Below are positions 2,169 to 7,445 of a DNA stretch of 11,417 bases, in pieces; positions within the stretch are counted from its first letter, which is position 1; each line of letters starts with the position of its first letter. A program made the translations under genes and the position numbers. This DNA is from Lentisphaeria bacterium (lineage in GTDB: Bacteria; Verrucomicrobiota; Lentisphaeria; JABSQK01; UBA12247): positions 1-11,417 of the forward strand of contig DMTJ01000176.1 in NCBI GenBank assembly GCA_003477185.1, in the 5' to 3' direction. The notes below the pieces were generated by a model. The model did no database searches, was not told the origin of the DNA, and saw nothing but the letters and a program-made list of their open reading frames with translations.

Positions 2169-2593
2169 AGTTACCTTCTTCCGTGATTGCCGAGTGCAAA
2201 TTCCCAACCTACTCTTGAACTAACCACTTCTCCAGCTACCTAACCGAGAATACAGAATCTTGGGCCCTACCCGCGATACTGACCCCGCAGCAAGTTTGAT
2301 CTCGGAGGTTATTCGGCACAGTTATTTGCCCCCACATGTTCGCATTCGAAGGAATTCCATGAGTAAACCAGGTAGCTTGGCTCTCTAAGCCGAGTTGCGA
2401 TGGCATTGCAGCGACGAGAACACGGACGCAGATCGGAGACCCAACGCTTCTTCTTGGCGGTGTCACGCAGCGGGAAGTGCCGAAGGGGATACTTCTCCGA
2501 ACCACACAGGATCTGCTCCACTACGGTGTACACCGCTGCCTGATCGAGTCTTTTTCAAATGCTCAAGGTCGGCTTAAGTCAGTGCCATTGGGG
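2169..2593 (-). other. 425-base stretch with no recognised gene
   Basis: It lies upstream of the small gene starting at 2168, so its promoter probably falls at the left end, but I see no convincing -35/-10 pair. A - strand open frame at about 2309-2533 is arginine- and cysteine-rich and matches nothing I know. I see no RNA gene, terminator or repeat. It is probably degenerate DNA continuous with the relics at 2594-3434. Confidence 0.4.
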
Positions 2594-2740
2594 TCATGGA
2601 TCATCATTGAAAAGCTGGTTGATCGCTCGCAGCTGCGCTGCCTCTACCTTCACAACCTTGCGGTCTAGCGTGACCATGCCGTTGATCTGGTAGTGATAGT
2701 CCGCCAACGCGCCTGCCATCTGACCATTCGGCGCTCCCGA
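2594..2740 (-). pseudogene. open 3' end of an unrecognised protein (fragment)
   Basis: The - strand frame from about 2740 to a stop at 2594-2596 reads as a plausible soluble C-terminus of about 49 residues. It includes QMAGALADYHYQINGMVTLD and ends AAQLRAINQLFNDDP, a composition more like real coding sequence than the alternative frames. It lacks a good start and is closed upstream by a stop, just past a run of six A/T bases at 2740-2745 where a frameshift could easily have occurred. I do not recognise the family. It may be a decayed gene whose 5' part was lost. Confidence 0.3.
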
Positions 2741-2769
2741 AAAAATGTAACCTTAATCCCGCGCGGGCC

Positions 2770-3145
2770 CTAAGCTCGATCTCGCTGTCGTGATGCGACG
2801 CATGATCGTACGACCTCCTCTTCAACAAGGTATCGGCGACCACCGGGTCGGCTAAGCATTGCCACGATTCTATCCAGCTCGGCTTTGTGCTTTCGACTCT
2901 CGTCTAGGCCCAATGCCTTGCCGACCACCGAGACACCCTGGCTGGCGGCACATTCCAGTGTCCCCCCGCGAGCAATCTCAAAGTAGCGCCGGTGGTCTGC
3001 GGGGGCCGTCTTACCGTCGCCTACGGCAATGTTCAGCGGGATAGACTGGCGCCCGCTTCAAGTCCCCGGCTTGATTATAAACACAAGCTATATAGTCGAT
3101 CGCAACTCGATGCACATCCAGTTTTTCAGGTCCTAATCCCGTAAT
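2770..3145 (-). pseudogene. four-helix-bundle protein (23S rRNA intervening-sequence / S23-like), broken
   Basis: Two frames together spell most of an S23-like four-helix-bundle protein. The N-terminal part (about 3145-3053) contains EKLDVHRVAIDYIACVYNQA. In another frame the C-terminal part (about 3049-2770) contains SIPLNIAVGDGK, then DHRRYFEIARG, TLECAA and ELDRIVAMLSRPGGR, ending at a TAG at 2770-2772. These are the hallmark segments of the family: SIPxNIAEGxGK followed by a helix containing FxxIARGSxxE. The stretch normally joining the halves (roughly a dozen codons before SIPLN) is missing, and the frame shifts at about 3050, so the gene carries a small out-of-frame deletion. No in-frame ATG is seen close to the expected N-terminus. 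Intact members form oligomeric bundles of unclear role. Confidence 0.75.
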
Positions 3146-3148
3146 GTT

Positions 3149-3178
3149 CGATACCGATCCCGATTTTGATTTGGATGC
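3149..3178. repeat. imperfect GAT-rich hexamer tract (about 5 units)
   Basis: On the + strand five successive six-base units, cgatac, cgatcc, cgattt, tgattt and ggatgc, share a central GAT. The reverse strand reads as an alternating I-K-I-G-I-G-I pattern. The tract lies between the four-helix-bundle relic and the HicB relic. It may be slippage-generated sequence and may have fused the two frames. Confidence 0.5.
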
Positions 3179-3221
3179 CGGCTTCTGCGATTGCACGGAT
3201 CGCATTGGCAGCATGTCGTGG

Positions 3222-3434
3222 GTGACAGTCACGACTCAACATACTCCCAGACTGTTCGAGGTTGGAGATCAGAGCCTTATCCTCACGCATCCCATCCAAG
3301 TGAAACACAATCGCATTTTGACTGTTGCGCTTGGCTTTCGCCAGAGTTCACCCCGTGGAAACGCCACCGATAAAATCCGGCACATAGGCGGAACAGTTCG
3401 AGCCAGCTAGCTCAATTACCACAGCATATCGCAT
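3222..3434 (-). pseudogene. HicB-family antitoxin relic with an internal stop
   Basis: Starting at an ATG at 3432-3434, the - strand reads MRYAVVIELAGSN, then SAYVPDFIGGVSTG, a TGA stop (3348-3350), and in the same frame TLAKAKRNSQNAIVFHLDGM followed by REDKAL. This matches the partial RNase-H-like HicB/UPF0150 antitoxin pattern, MRYxVVIE-x-YSAYVPDLPGC-x-TxGxTLEE-x-N-x-AI-x-HL-x-G-REDG. The length to the end of the similarity (about 70 codons) is right for a stand-alone HicB-type protein. The internal stop falls at the variable residue before TLEE, and the conserved Gly-Cys turn is altered to Gly-Gly. Past the similarity the frame stays open to 3126 through the GAT repeat. No HicA toxin is visible next to it, so this is probably an orphan, decayed antitoxin gene. 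Confidence 0.8.
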
Positions 3435-3491
3435 CGTCACGCTGTCCGCATATCTTGGGCGTGCCGGAAACGATTTCCTATCAGTTAGCGG

Positions 3492-4817
3492 CTAGTTCGC
3501 CGCAAGACCAGGCGTTTGGGAATGGGCACCCTGCGGAAAGTCGAAGGTCAACACGAATGGTTCAGTTCCCGTGTTCGCTATCTCGACCCCGCCGCGGTCA
3601 AGCGCGGCCTGAGTGATAAATCCGACCTCCGGATAGATCTCGCCGAGAATCATACCCTGATTGTAGCGTACTTCGAGCTTGCCGACGCGACCGTTTCCAC
3701 CATTTGTATGGAACAGCGCGGGACTCTCAGGACGAAAGTTGGTCTTGCTGCCAGGATCTATGGTGAGTCGGAGAATTGAACACCGCTGCTCGCCAAGGAC
3801 CTCACCGTAGACAATCCACTTTGCATCAACGCCTTCGCCTGCAAATTCTTCGGCAACGATCGTCGGTCGGGAATTCTTCAGGACAAAGTCAGGGTCCTGG
3901 TTAGCTGCGAAGTCAAACTGATCAACCAGGTACTCCCAGTCTTCATGTTTGTCCTTCGGATAATCCTCTTCCCGACATGCGTAGAACGCATCCGCAGCGC
4001 CGATACGGCCATCAAGCGTCAGGTCCTCGGCGAGGAAATGCTCATCCATCGTGACATGCAACTCGTGCGTACAAAGATCCGTCGGTGAGTGAAGTACACC
4101 GTTCGGCATTACGAAACCATTATCGAGCTGCATCATCACGTGCGGGGCCAAGTGCCGGATCCCGTTATACTCGCCCTGGCCCCAGCTCTTCATACAAGCG
4201 AGAAACTGATCCTTCGTCACGAACGGATATAATCCCATGGCGGTCGTGTGATAATGCGACGGACTAACTCCGGGATTGTCAAACGAATTAATGTCGTAGA
4301 CTTCCCACTTTGCCCAGTGAAGATGATTCGGAATCGGATTCAGATTGTCGAACTTCTTTGAAACGATCGGCCAAGTTGCCTCACCGAACACTGACTCCGC
4401 AAAGGCCGTAACCTTCTCCCCCATGACGGCTTTAGGATTGGCGGCAATCAAATCCTGAAGTGAGATAACTTGCCCGCTGGGCGTGAGGACGTGTGCTTCG
4501 CCTTCACGAAACGGAGCCTTCTGCGTACGCGTGTCGATGACGCCAGTCACAATTGGAACGGTACAGCACATCCAGAGCTCATCGAGACCCGTCCCGCCCA
4601 TATAATCCGGATAGTAAGATTGAGCATCCAGGCGAAGGCGTTTACCTGGCGTACAAAACGTTCGCCCCGCATAGCGGTGCAGAAGCTGCAATACGCCATC
4701 GTTCTGATTCAGGCAGTCATCCAGAATCGAATCCGATGCTCCGTTGGCCCCATCGATCACGTCTTGTTGTGGGTACTCGTGCAGTTTATCCGCAAGAATT
4801 GATGTCGAAACAGCCAT
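3492..4817 (-). CDS. double-cupin protein, possible sugar(-phosphate) isomerase-like enzyme
   Basis: A 441-residue soluble protein with no signal peptide. Its middle looks like a metal-binding cupin: HLHWAKWE (His165, His167, Glu172), SHYHTT (His188, His190) and NGVLHS (His243), followed by CTHELHVTMDEH at 249-260. A second beta-rich domain (about 330-435) carries LFHTNGGNGRVGK (His370), like a second cupin. The His-x-His...Glu...His layout resembles the zinc site of type I phosphomannose isomerases, but the overall sequence is not a standard ManA, so the name is inference. The start at 4817 has a GAGGTG ribosome site at good spacing. It stands alone between two degraded regions. Its place beside uronate and sulfated-glycan genes suggests carbohydrate work, though it could also be a non-enzymatic cupin. 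Confidence 0.6.
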   Translation of the reverse strand: MAVSTSILADKLHEYPQQDVIDGANGASDSILDDCLNQNDGVLQLLHRYAGRTFCTPGKRLRLDAQSYYPDYMGGTGLDELWMCCTVPIVTGVIDTRTQKAPFREGEAHVLTPSGQVISLQDLIAANPKAVMGEKVTAFAESVFGEATWPIVSKKFDNLNPIPNHLHWAKWEVYDINSFDNPGVSPSHYHTTAMGLYPFVTKDQFLACMKSWGQGEYNGIRHLAPHVMMQLDNGFVMPNGVLHSPTDLCTHELHVTMDEHFLAEDLTLDGRIGAADAFYACREEDYPKDKHEDWEYLVDQFDFAANQDPDFVLKNSRPTIVAEEFAGEGVDAKWIVYGEVLGEQRCSILRLTIDPGSKTNFRPESPALFHTNGGNGRVGKLEVRYNQGMILGEIYPEVGFITQAALDRGGVEIANTGTEPFVLTFDFPQGAHSQTPGLAAN

Positions 4818-5062: not shown

Positions 5063-5506
5063 TCAAGCCCCCAAGCCCCACTTGCCGATCAAGGCCGTCG
5101 AGTAACCCGCCTCACTCATCTTTTCGGCTACCGTAATGGTTTCGTCCGGGATCGGAAGCTGACCCGACTCGTTTTCCACGCTCCTCATAATTTCGTAATT
5201 CCCGCAAATATGGGCGTGCCCCACATGCTGGCCCGTCATCAGGGAACAGCGCGAAGAGGCACAGACGGAGGTCCCGTAATAATAATCCGTCAAACGCAGC
5301 CCCTCTTTCGCCATTTGGTCGATCCGGGGCGTCTTAATGACCTTCTGACCGTAGCAGCCCAATTGCCCATAGCCCATGTCATCACACATGACGAAAATCA
5401 CGTTGGGGTTTTCCGGGATGGACTCCGTTTGGGCGCCCTGCCCCAAAAGAGGTTGCAATGTCAGGGCCGCGGCCAAAGCCACGCAGTTTCGGTAGTTTTT
5501 CATCAT
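5063..5506 (-). pseudogene. type I sulfatase, N-terminal fragment
   Basis: A 147-residue remnant of an exported formylglycine-dependent sulfatase (normally about 450-550 residues). It has a signal peptide (about 1-25), the opening strand NPNVIFVMCDDMGYGQLGCY with the metal-binding Asp pair (42-43), and the sulfatase signature CASSR at 82-86, where Cys82 would become formylglycine. It ends GKWGLGA then a stop: the usual GKWHLG-type motif is present, but the remaining two thirds of the enzyme, with the other metal ligands and C-terminal subdomain, is absent. It therefore cannot be active. The start at 5506 (or the second ATG at 5503) has AGGAA at suitable spacing. It lies 11 bases downstream of the carbohydrate-binding-like fragment, so a former operon is possible. 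The family acts on sulfated glycans. Confidence 0.85.
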
Positions 5507-5517
5507 GGGTAAAATTC

Positions 5518-5747
5518 CTATTTCTGATGGTCTTTGATAATCAGGATGGCGTGATCGCCGGAGAAAAGAGCCCCGCCGCAGTCGATCCAGGCGACGAGAG
5601 CGCGCCATTCACGCTGAGTTGCATCGAGTGGCCGTTGGCGGCAGGGCGTTCGCCGCTGTAGCGGATGGCAAGGGTCGCTGCTCCGGCACCGCCGTCGTTT
5701 CCCTGATAACACCCCACGTAGGATCGGGTGTGGCCCAAGAAGTCGAG
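5518..5747 (-). pseudogene. carbohydrate-binding-module-like fragment, frameshifted
   Basis: The - strand frame running from about 5747 reads YVGCYQGNDGG, AATLAIRYSGE, then NGHSMQLSVNG. This resembles the middle of a CBM6/35-type beta-sandwich, in which a YxGNDG-like start is followed by TLxxRYAN and a MxLxVNG strand. About 50 bases before 5541 the sensible reading seems to pass to another frame, giving HAILIIKDHQK and a TAG at 5518-5520, which could be the end of the same domain. The sulfatase start follows 11 bases later. If right, this is the end of a secreted carbohydrate-active protein with at least one frameshift. The assignment rests on a loose motif match; chance reading is a real alternative. 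Confidence 0.3.
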
Positions 5748-5947
5748 CTAGCCTCGCCTTGGTCGTCACCTGAATGTACCAAGCGTAGAGTCAACAGCAC
5801 CAGCAAGACCGGCCCGATGCCTTATTTGAACGGAACTTCAGTGAGAATAATCGCCGCGCGTGCAACACTTACCAGCACTGCAATTTCTCCAAAAATCCGG
5901 AGATGGACTGGCAACTTCTTGTCGCTCCTGATGCGCCTGTCATCCAA
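5748..5947 (-). pseudogene. small membrane protein relic just after an attC site
   Basis: Directly after the R' box of the attC site the - strand frame opens at a TTG (5945-5947) and encodes a basic stretch (RRIRSDKKLPVHLRIFGE) followed by a hydrophobic segment, AVLVSVARAAIIL. A TAA at 5822-5824 interrupts it, after which the same frame gives a second hydrophobic segment (GIGPVLLVLLTLRLVHSGDD). The layout of two membrane segments beginning right at the cassette boundary fits a cassette gene broken by one nonsense change. There is no good ATG in this frame. The protein is not recognised. Confidence 0.35.
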
Positions 5948-6037
5948 CTTTAGAGCTGTGGCAGGGCGGGGTCAAACTCTCCAGAGCGAAGCGAACAAGA
6001 GGCGCTAGCTGCCCGTGCCACCAGCGGCTTGTTAGAC
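5942..6037 (-). repeat. attC: integron attC recombination site (59-base element)
   Basis: On the - strand the site begins with the R'' box GTCTAAC (6037-6031) and ends with the R' box GTTGGAT (5948-5942); both fit the RYYYAAC and GTTRRRY consensus. Inside, + strand 6011-6025 and 5955-5967 are complementary over 13 base pairs, leaving two unpaired bases on one arm only. This is the extrahelical-base pattern that gives attC hairpins their strand choice. The length is 96 bases, normal for attC. The TAA of the 114-residue gene lies inside R'', a usual arrangement for cassette genes. No integrase gene is in the window. Confidence 0.8.
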
Positions 6038-6376
6038 ATCCTCTCGTACGCCAACCTTCTTTAGCTCTTGAAGAAGATCGCTCAACTGTCGTTTGTGCGC
6101 CTCCTCAAACCGCAGTCGCACCTCGCGCTCGTCCCGCGTGCGAACCGTGATGTAAAAATCTTCGAGCATAATATCTCGGTGCAGAGTAGTCCGAATGACT
6201 TCAAGCTCGGGATCCGTCTCGACGCGAGCAAGGACTCGGTTGAACTTTCCATAATATCCGAACGGGAGGCCCAGGTTCGGCGCGAAGCCAATAGCGCTCA
6301 AGGCGATGAGGATCAGAATTACCAGCGAAGCAGCCAGTGTCGATAGAGCTAGCCACAGCTTCGTCTTTGTTTTCAT
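6032..6376 (-). CDS. gene-cassette protein, membrane-anchored, unknown function
   Basis: A 114-residue protein with a basic N-terminus (MKTKTK), one hydrophobic segment at about 8-31, and a hydrophilic tail rich in Arg and Glu (DEREVRLRFEEAHKRQLSDL), probably helical, predicted to hang on one side of the membrane. No family was recognised. The ATG at 6376 is preferred to an in-frame ATG 22 codons upstream because the longer version would run back through the degenerate attC. No strong ribosome site is seen, which is common in cassettes. Its stop lies inside the attC R'' box and its start lies 12 bases after the candidate R' box of the preceding attC. The gene therefore fills a cassette of roughly 450 bases, and its expression would depend on read-through from upstream. 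Confidence 0.7.
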   Translation of the reverse strand: MKTKTKLWLALSTLAASLVILILIALSAIGFAPNLGLPFGYYGKFNRVLARVETDPELEVIRTTLHRDIMLEDFYITVRTRDEREVRLRFEEAHKRQLSDLLQELKKVGVREDV

Positions 6377-6388
6377 GTCATTATTTGT

Positions 6389-6454
6389 GCTTACCGTCAA
6401 GTGGTGGGACGGTGCGACCTTAGGAGCGGCGTTCCAACGCACGATTAGTTATAT
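6389..6454 (-). repeat. attC: degenerate attC candidate between two cassette genes
   Basis: On the - strand this 66-base stretch starts with ATATAAC (6454-6448), one mismatch from RYYYAAC, and ends with an ACTTGACG-like L' segment followed by GGTAAGC (6395-6389), one change from GTTRRRY. Short inverted matches lie between: GTGCG with CGCAC, and TTGGAACG against CGTCCCA. ACCGTC/GACGGT also forms a hairpin. It sits where a cassette boundary is expected, 3 bases after the stop of the 149-residue gene and 12 bases before the start of the 114-residue gene. The altered GTT core would make it a poor recombination site. Confidence 0.45.
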
Positions 6455-6457
6455 CAG

Positions 6458-6907
6458 TTACTTGTTGCCAAGGATCGCTTTCGTGAATTCGGCCTCATCG
6501 GGGCCGAGACCGAATCCACCAAGCGGGCTACAAACGCTCCTCCCGAAAATTGTGACTTCCAGGTATTTGCTGCCGGGATGCAACACATACACCGAGGTAG
6601 TGGGTGTATCAGAGCCGATCCTTTTTAATTTATCCTCCACCGAATACAGCTTGCCGAGAAGTTCACCCACATCGATGAGTGTTTGCTTGTCTGTAACGAC
6701 CGTTGTCTTGCTCGGCTTCTTCTTGCTGGTATTTGGGTATTGAATGATAATGATCTTCTCAACCTTCTTAACCATGAAGGCGTCAGCAAGCGTTTTAATT
6801 TCCAGATCATTATCAGTTTCCGGGAAGTCATCTGCATCGGCGGCCAGAAGGCACATTGTAGGTATTAGTAGCCCGATGAGCACGAAACGCCTGAGTCCTA
6901 TTATCAT
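6458..6907 (-). CDS. probable cassette-borne exported protein, unknown function
   Basis: A 149-residue protein with a clear export signal (MIIGLRRFVLIGLLIPTMCL, cleavage expected near 21-25), so probably periplasmic or surface-located. The mature part begins acidic, has a strongly hydrophobic beta-strand (KVEKIIIIQYPN, 48-59), a Lys/Ser/Thr stretch (60-75), and a tail with a single Cys126 and a Gly-rich loop (GGFGLGPDEAE). No family was recognised. The start at 6907 has a strong AAGGGAG ribosome site five bases ahead. By eye it is more AT-rich than its catabolic neighbours, which fits horizontal acquisition. It lies between the degenerate attC (6389-6454) and the bulged hairpin at 6922-6996. 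Confidence 0.7.
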   Translation of the reverse strand: MIIGLRRFVLIGLLIPTMCLLAADADDFPETDNDLEIKTLADAFMVKKVEKIIIIQYPNTSKKKPSKTTVVTDKQTLIDVGELLGKLYSVEDKLKRIGSDTPTTSVYVLHPGSKYLEVTIFGRSVCSPLGGFGLGPDEAEFTKAILGNK

Positions 6908-6921
6908 TGCTGCTCCCTTTG

Positions 6922-6996
6922 TAGGGACATGACGTCTGCCACAGCTGACTGCCGAAGTCTCCCCGGAGGCAGGTCAGCTGATGGCTCATGTTCAAT
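6922..6996 (-). repeat. long bulged hairpin, attC-like
   Basis: On the + strand 6938-6953 and 6968-6985 pair over 16 base pairs around a 14-base loop, with two single bases bulged on one arm only (near 6973 and at 6981). An outer ACATGA/TCATGT match (6927-6932 with 6986-6991) extends the fold. This is the shape of an attC hairpin. The presumed R'' box on the - strand is ATTGAAC (one mismatch), but the opposing core reads GTC rather than GTT. It lies 15 bases upstream of the 149-residue gene start, so it could instead be a leader hairpin of that gene. Confidence 0.4.
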
Positions 6997-7093
6997 TCTG
7001 TTTTCTGTCGGCGCACGATAGACGCTCGATCTGGACTTCGCAAGGGATCTTCGATAGGAGATTAGGCATCCCTACCTTTTTTGAACGACATGC

Positions 7094-7121
7094 TCACCCG
7101 CCGAGGTACGAGGCTGGGTGA
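7094..7121. repeat. hairpin beside a GAAC tetranucleotide at the edge of the IS91 relic
   Basis: TCACCCGCC (7094-7102) pairs with GGC-T-GGGTGA (7112-7121) around a 9-base loop, with one bulged T. GAAC lies at 7083-7086. IS91-family elements have subterminal hairpins and insert next to GAAC or CAAG, so this may be an element end. An eroded attC is the other possibility. It is not a terminator: no T-run follows the stem in the - strand sense. Confidence 0.3.
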
Positions 7122-7219
7122 ATGCGATGGTTAGCATCTTGATTGTTGCCGCGTGGTCACGTTCTACTGCCTAGTATGCTTCGATATCGGCTGCAGATCA
7201 AGACGTTTCGGAATTCACC

Positions 7220-7445
7220 ATGCCGAAACGGTTCCGTGCCCACTTTCGCTACGACCGAGATCTGCTCAAGCATCTCCCTGGTCTCGCGTGGGAGACAGTG
7301 CGCGACGTCTACCGGGCCGCGCTTGACGTGTAACGCCTTCCCGATCCGTAACGATACTCAGTTCCGACGTGGCGTGCCGCGCAACTTTAAGATCTGCGAG
7401 CCACTCGAATTTATTGCTGAGGTGACGCAGTATATTCCGGAGCCA
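7220..7445 (+). pseudogene. IS91-family (IS801/ISCR-like) transposase fragments
   Basis: Two + strand pieces in different frames match segments of an IS91-type transposase. The first (7220-7333) reads MPKRFRAHFRYDRDLLKHLP then GLAWETVRDVYRAAL before a stop, like the PKxLRxxFxxDRxLLxxL region upstream of the catalytic HUH/tyrosine part. The second (about 7377-7445) reads PRNFKICEPLEFIAEVTQYI ending in PEP, like the C-terminal FDPLDFLAxLxxHIPE motif that precedes the final RYYGxYSN. The long catalytic middle and the extreme C-terminus are missing. Similarity stops at 7445, exactly where the aldolase stop codon (7446-7448) begins. The element is inactive. Recognition is by motif memory, so the subfamily is uncertain. 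Confidence 0.65.

Follow-up and report, generated by a model that had tools for sequence, protein, structure and literature searches.

The DNA analysed here, referred to below as the window, makes up the entire contig C112 (11,417 bp); the draft genome to which it belongs totals 3.95 Mb and has 612 contigs. Besides genes for a sulfatase, an aldolase and a GH88 protein, the window carries the following features around a small gene of its minus strand:

5942..6037, minus strand: very probable attC site (R''-L''-terminal loop-L'-R'), 96 nt, from covariance models and a register table
5942..5948, minus strand: R' box GTTGGAT, pairing with the R'' box
5955..5967, minus strand: L' arm GCCC-TGCCAC-AGC, without extra bases
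6011..6025, minus strand: L'' arm GCT-[G]-GTGGCA-[C]-GGGC, extrahelical bases at 6022 and 6015
6031..6037, minus strand: R'' box GTCTAAC, carrying the stop TAA of the 114-aa gene
6032..6376, minus strand: putative cassette gene, 114 aa from ATG, with an alternative GTG start at 6442
6432..6454, minus strand: tentative remnant of an upstream attC (ATATAAC, 9 nt, GTTGGA(A)), from a relaxed post hoc pattern
6458..6907, minus strand: orphan ORF of 149 aa, possibly an older cassette gene

Elsewhere in the window, the N-terminal part of a sulfatase (5063-5608, minus) covers Pfam profile positions 1-102 of 301, is ended by a stop and is likely a pseudogene. A 441-aa protein encoded at 3492-4817 (minus) had no Pfam or NCBIfam match. 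Two long stretches, 2200-3490 and 6910-7440, contain no convincing gene; a short open piece near 7220-7330 (plus), which had no Pfam match, is on our impression only reminiscent of a transposase.

Structure of the attC site

Read on the minus strand from 6037 to 5942, the site is GTCTAAC-AAGCC-GCT-[G]-GTGGCA-[C]-GGGC ... GCCC-TGCCAC-AGC-TCTAAA-GTTGGAT. The consensus of the attC boxes is RYYYAAC and GTTRRRY, and both boxes of the window site fit it. R'' and R' form seven standard pairs out of seven, two of them G-T, and all 13 inner pairs of L'' and L' are standard (3+6+4 bp), with both extra bases on the R''-L'' (5') arm. In the top-strand fold with both stems formed, the spacers AAGCC and TCTAAA are unpaired. 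The boxes and their coordinates, the span of 96 nt, the 13 inner base pairs and the two extrahelical bases on one arm had all been proposed in a sequence-only reading of this DNA and were confirmed here, as was its claim that the small gene stops inside R'': the ORF at 6032-6376 (minus) ends at the TAA in GTCTAAC. The integrase cut in R' is presumably to be expected at G|TT. When the window was searched for RYYYAAC and GTTRRRY boxes that together span 45-200 bases, two places were returned, each on both strands, namely 5942-6037 and 6080-6245; the latter, which at 166 bases is over the length limits of the pairing scans, had no covariance-model match.

As described in a passage of PMC2727003, the definition of the extrahelical bases of attC rests on the R''-L'' arm, where there are two or three single ones, and classical sites have a G conserved in L'' and, 6-8 nt further along, a T. 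This classical identity is absent in the window site, whose bottom strand reads C and G. Its first extra base is common to 16 of 29 comparison attCs, whereas the second (C on top) occurs in none of the 29, all of which have A; these comparison sites were placed by position, and most had been selected as fitting the register of the window site. All structural features tested on the sequence of 5942..6037 are those of an attC, with the single exception of which bases are the extra ones. Since the second extra base is absent from all comparison sites, the window attC is possibly weakened as a recombination site.

Chance expectation, folding and pair covariation

The chance level was estimated with a register template (spacer, 3-4 bp, extra base, 5-6 bp, extra base, 3 bp) on both strands of 871.5 Mb of order-2 Markov sequence modelled on the window. 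In this simulated DNA 376 places matched with at most one mismatch; 19 perfect matches occurred irrespective of strength (0.00025 per window), and no match with 7 box pairs equalled the window site in strength. The estimate is partly post hoc because the template was fixed after sight of the window site and of an integron array in another genome (locus L010). For this reason covariance models were also built from other sites.

A chance inverted repeat, or another hairpin such as a terminator, could merely resemble an attC, and the energy of the window hairpin is indeed ordinary: compared with shuffles, it is unremarkable on the bottom strand (z -0.71) and on the top strand (z -0.56). In the minimum-energy fold of the bottom strand the L stem alone forms and the R boxes are unpaired. 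The unusual base at the second extra position also speaks for such a chance hairpin, and the lack of any equally good site in the simulated 871.5 Mb speaks against it.

Changes of paired bases were followed in a nearly gapless alignment of 19 sites including that of the window (304 cells). In this alignment 95.4% of the cells pair, as against at most 40% in slid registers, an advantage that is partly built in because the structure was derived from the same 19 sites. Changes on both sides affected 58 cells, a number reached by none of 500 shuffles, and 10 pairs had a change on both sides (reached by 9 of 500), while the 22 further pair types gave no signal (158 of 500).

Plain box-pattern searches carry no weight, since their 20 matches in eight genomes were not enriched over the 26 of a reversed control. 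In the window's own genome such a search found four places (reversed control, one): the window site, where the match ended at an internal GTTTGAC, a site on contig C105 that is described below, and two others that we judged by eye to be chance. An Rfam search of the window returned nothing at E up to 1, which says little because we know of no attC family in that Rfam release.

Covariance models

Two home-made covariance models with N-filled loops, R2 (14 seeds) and R3 (19 seeds), replaced a model with the loops cut out (R1), which was discarded because it missed the window site and most L010 attCs, several of them its own seeds. The R3 seeds comprise five sites from L010, six from L053 (genome G317) and eight from other loci; sites of L010 and L053 are thus seeds, and the window site is a seed of neither R2 nor R3. 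Sites with the second extra base elsewhere, misaligned ends or redundancy were left out of R3 (L104:9106, L120, L128:1501, three of L132, L133, L131, L093, L129, L130, L134, L073, L016, L065, L124:1501, L127:1501 and the remaining L010 sites), and R3 therefore favours the register class of the window. All E-values are rough because the calibration was short.

On the window, R3 matched the site with 22.2 bits (E=1.7e-4) as its sole match at E up to 1, and R2 matched it with 20.4 bits (E 4.4e-4), the next best place having only 8.6 bits, which argues further against a chance hairpin. The covariance search that had been suggested earlier, run here with our own models on the window, thus returned the predicted match at 5942-6037 but no further scoring site on the contig. 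Specificity was assessed on 26 loci: to the window were added 25 contigs or regions of its own or same-order genomes, chosen for holding matches, and R3 gave 66 matches at E up to 0.5. Fourteen loci had at least two matches (54 in all) and within each of them these lay on one strand only, as in cassette arrays; the other 12, the window among them, had a single match each. With 22.0 bits, the window site ranks 39th of the 66. R2 also matched true L010 attCs on the opposite strand, with up to 22.2 bits, so that a score of such size alone does not fix polarity.

Whole-genome searches with R3, in which at most 150 candidates were scored per genome, gave a match at E up to 5 in seven of eight genomes. 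The 90 matches in G317 are partly by construction, as this genome is the source of six R3 seeds. When 150 of 684 candidates in the window's own genome were scored with R3, another site was listed and the window site was not, probably because of this limited number. R2 gave no match in the same genome with only 150 of 1378 candidates scored, and the window site was not listed in the genome search with R1 either, a model that misses most known L010 attCs as well.

The sulfatase, aldolase and GH88 genes have no attC behind them, and nothing in the window besides the site at 5942..6037 scored above 8.6 bits with R2; these genes were therefore rejected as cassettes. Integron-mediated capture had been proposed to have shaped the glycan-catabolic locus. 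This is unsupported because these three genes show no attC, and no other window gene is followed by a scoring one. The window attC says nothing on the neighbouring sugar-degradation genes.

The 114-aa gene and its relatives

The 114-aa protein has a hydrophobic stretch at its N terminus. No family in Pfam or NCBIfam was found for it, and of the solved structures searched by profile two matched at chance level (E 0.5 and 0.77). The offset of its stop codon inside R'' recurs in five of 16 other sites compared (six of 17 with the window), two of the six ORFs being only 20 and 52 aa long, and in the remaining 11 of 17 sites the longest ORF nearby ends earlier, with a stop codon that starts 1 to 45 bases upstream of R''. 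At E up to 0.001 the protein matches 135 protein clusters including its own. Among the 120 clusters listed, 10 are extended by four residues, the last an alanine, consistent with a GCC-TAA-C box, and 96 end in M or L, as does the relative at locus L008, whose stop precedes the box by a few codons. One homologue (P0059) reads through into PNKRMQPT, which we take to be the translation of a canonical attC start.

Relatives of the gene are encoded at seven loci of genome records. The most informative context is that of L010, where a relative with 34% identity at 5693-5980 lies between attCs at 5547-5662 and 5993-6106, and the gene family of the window cassette is thus found between attCs of an integron elsewhere. 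The relatives at L008 and L009 are closer (75 and 77% identity) and are surrounded by ORFs unlike those of the window. DNA similarity of the gene to both loci stops at 6027, just past R'', and R''-like boxes stand behind the gene in both; in L008 the box is kept despite a stop codon upstream of it. R3 gave no match on L008 and L009, nor on the more distant L011-L014.

The distribution of the gene is patchy. At E up to 1e-8 it was found in one of 387 genomes of a phylum sample, the window's own, whereas a search at E up to 1e-60 retrieved relatives of the neighbouring aldolase from 122 of 197 class genomes. The listed aldolase relatives are at most 56% identical and many lie in longer proteins, so that not all are orthologues and the comparison is a contrast of spread rather than a proof of orthology. 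These counts speak against the earlier alternative of a gene and flanks conserved as one chromosomal unit. The gene had no match in phages or plasmids, and relatives were likewise absent from 41 viral stretches that carry the pattern.

A hairpin that only by chance stands behind this gene is hard to reconcile with the cassette status of its relative in L010 and with the R''-like boxes in L008 and L009, and we regard it as very improbable. We conclude with high confidence that 5942..6037 is a genuine attC closing a cassette that encodes a small protein with a hydrophobic N terminus; this confidence does not extend to the route by which the cassette arrived.

Search for an integron integrase, and a second attC match in the genome

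The integron integrase model TIGR02249 matched nothing on the contig, and in the genome bin, listed as 84.6% complete, no match reached its cut-off. The bin has four sub-threshold matches, which occupy two open frames, one on C372 and one on C355; the C372 frame is XerD (NCBIfam, 338.3 bits against a cut-off of 329.6) and reached 127.6 of the 265 bits needed for an integron integrase. TIGR02249 matched over its cut-off in 107 of the 387 phylum-sample genomes, two of the same order among them. Ten of 20 regions around TIGR02249 matches contained an attC match (R3 at E up to 3, R2 at E up to 5) and ten did not, so that not every TIGR02249 match need belong to an integron. The regions over the integrase cut-off without an attC match (L045, L046, L049, L050, L054-L057, L059 and L061) may be empty integrons, contig ends or members of a related recombinase group.

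As no integrase was detected in the genome, the cassette appears stranded. The locus had been described earlier as a probable CALIN. An attC without an integrase over the cut-off in an 84.6%-complete bin fits this description, but the notion of a cluster is unsupported with one attC on the contig.

A second attC match of the genome was found with R3 on C105 (locus L166), at 7069-7127 on the minus strand, with 26.9 bits. Its R'' box, GTCGAAC, does not fit the consensus strictly. A 179-aa ORF ends just ahead of this R'', its stop codon starting four bases before the box, and CdaA and YbbR genes lie on the other side. From the start of the 179-aa ORF it is 53 bases to the end of the contig, with a GTTCGAC box nearby, and C105 may therefore hold a cassette array broken off by the assembly.

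The missing integrase would be meaningless if the window contig came from another genome. A draft of 612 contigs with 84.6% completeness and 3% contamination leaves room for such a binning artefact, against which stand the second attC match on another contig of the same bin and the presence of attC arrays in same-order genomes. We consider a misplaced contig improbable.

The upstream reading frame and the route of arrival

The 149-aa ORF upstream of the cassette gene has a hydrophobic N-terminal stretch as well. It had no Pfam or NCBIfam match, and no homologue beyond its own cluster was found among 71 word-sharing candidates drawn from 5.8 billion proteins. Three bases past its stop begins ATATAAC-9 nt-GTTGGA, a reduced R''-R' pair. 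Counts on the fetched loci give an expectation of 0.0008 for this relaxed pattern, which was picked after seeing 6432..6454, to lie no more than 10 bases from any one stop; it also occurs once elsewhere in the window, at 3234 (plus). The pair had no covariance-model match (R2, R3). An attC match in a same-order genome (L168) likewise has ATATAAC as its R'' box. The sequence is only suggestive of an internally deleted second attC behind the 149-aa ORF that has lost its hairpin. The fuller proposal of a dying array of two cassettes at this locus, with one attC reduced to R''-9 nt-R' between the 149-aa and 114-aa genes, strikes us as rather doubtful. If true, it would be a fossil of cassettes turning into fixed chromosomal genes through loss of the attC hairpin.

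By analogy with what a passage of PMC2727003 describes, the single-stranded bottom strand of the attC (the plus strand of the window) would fold in the cell with R''/R' and L''/L' paired, and the two extra bases of the L'' arm would set the polarity and orient the integron integrase. The integrase would then cut R' at G|TT, and the cassette would move as a circle. How this cassette came to its present place can be read in two ways. We slightly favour, as the most likely route, that a short cassette array has left it as its remnant, the 149-aa ORF being perhaps a second cassette whose attC hairpin has been lost.

Alternatively, there may never have been an array: a circular cassette could have been inserted singly and off target into an attG-type site by an integrase acting in trans, which was later lost or is unassembled. 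PMC8618304 names off-target insertion among the origins of integrase-less cassettes, and PMC12444791 cites attG integration in E. coli. The single attC in 11.4 kb and the second attC match of the genome at an unrelated locus would also agree with it. Off-target insertion is thought to need only the first few bases of GTTRRRY, whereas the downstream R' of the window fits the whole motif; moreover, a reduced R''-R' pair, recognised post hoc, stands at the place expected upstream. Such an insertion is a serious possibility, though we lean away from it.

Comparison with known systems

The closest system compared is L010, in a MAG labelled Pseudomonadales (genome G412). A region fetched around an over-cut-off integrase (L090) contains the first attC of L010 and is therefore the same contig. 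L010 is thus an integron array with an integrase, whereas the window has a single site and no integrase was detected. The attCs of L010 share the register of the window site (box, 5-nt spacer, 3 bp, extra base, 6 bp, extra base, stem). They differ in the second extra base, which is A in the 14 L010 sites compared and C in the window, and in their boxes, mostly GCCTAAC/GTTAGGC as against GTCTAAC/GTTGGAT. Genomes of the same order (G320, G126, G389) and of the same class (G317) have attCs with scores like that of the window, several with an ORF ending at or near R''; most of their matches were found in multi-site loci, unlike the one site of the window. In G320, the contigs L208, L213, L211, L207 and L214 carry 10, 7, 5, 5 and 4 attC matches, respectively, and the matches of each contig are all on a single strand.

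With no intI on its contig, the window locus is not a complete integron, and with one match in 11,417 bp it falls short of the default CALIN rule of at least two clustered attC sites. It resembles the CALIN and single-attC elements treated in a passage of PMC9024848, which likewise have attC without an integrase nearby; according to the same passage, IntegronFinder 2.0 requires at least two attC sites by default and single-attC cases can be true.

The window adds to these elements an attC supported by structure and covariance model, together with a cassette family encoding a small protein, and suggests that ordinary chromosomal surroundings come to hold stranded cassettes. It leaves the picture of integrons unchanged, as a real but ordinary leftover of gene capture. 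In the part of PMC8618304 cited here, integrons are already reported from many phyla, including Verrucomicrobiota and Planctomycetota, and the origins proposed for integrase-less cassettes include off-target insertion, loss of intI and rearrangement. The window locus lies within this list of origins and does not depart from it.
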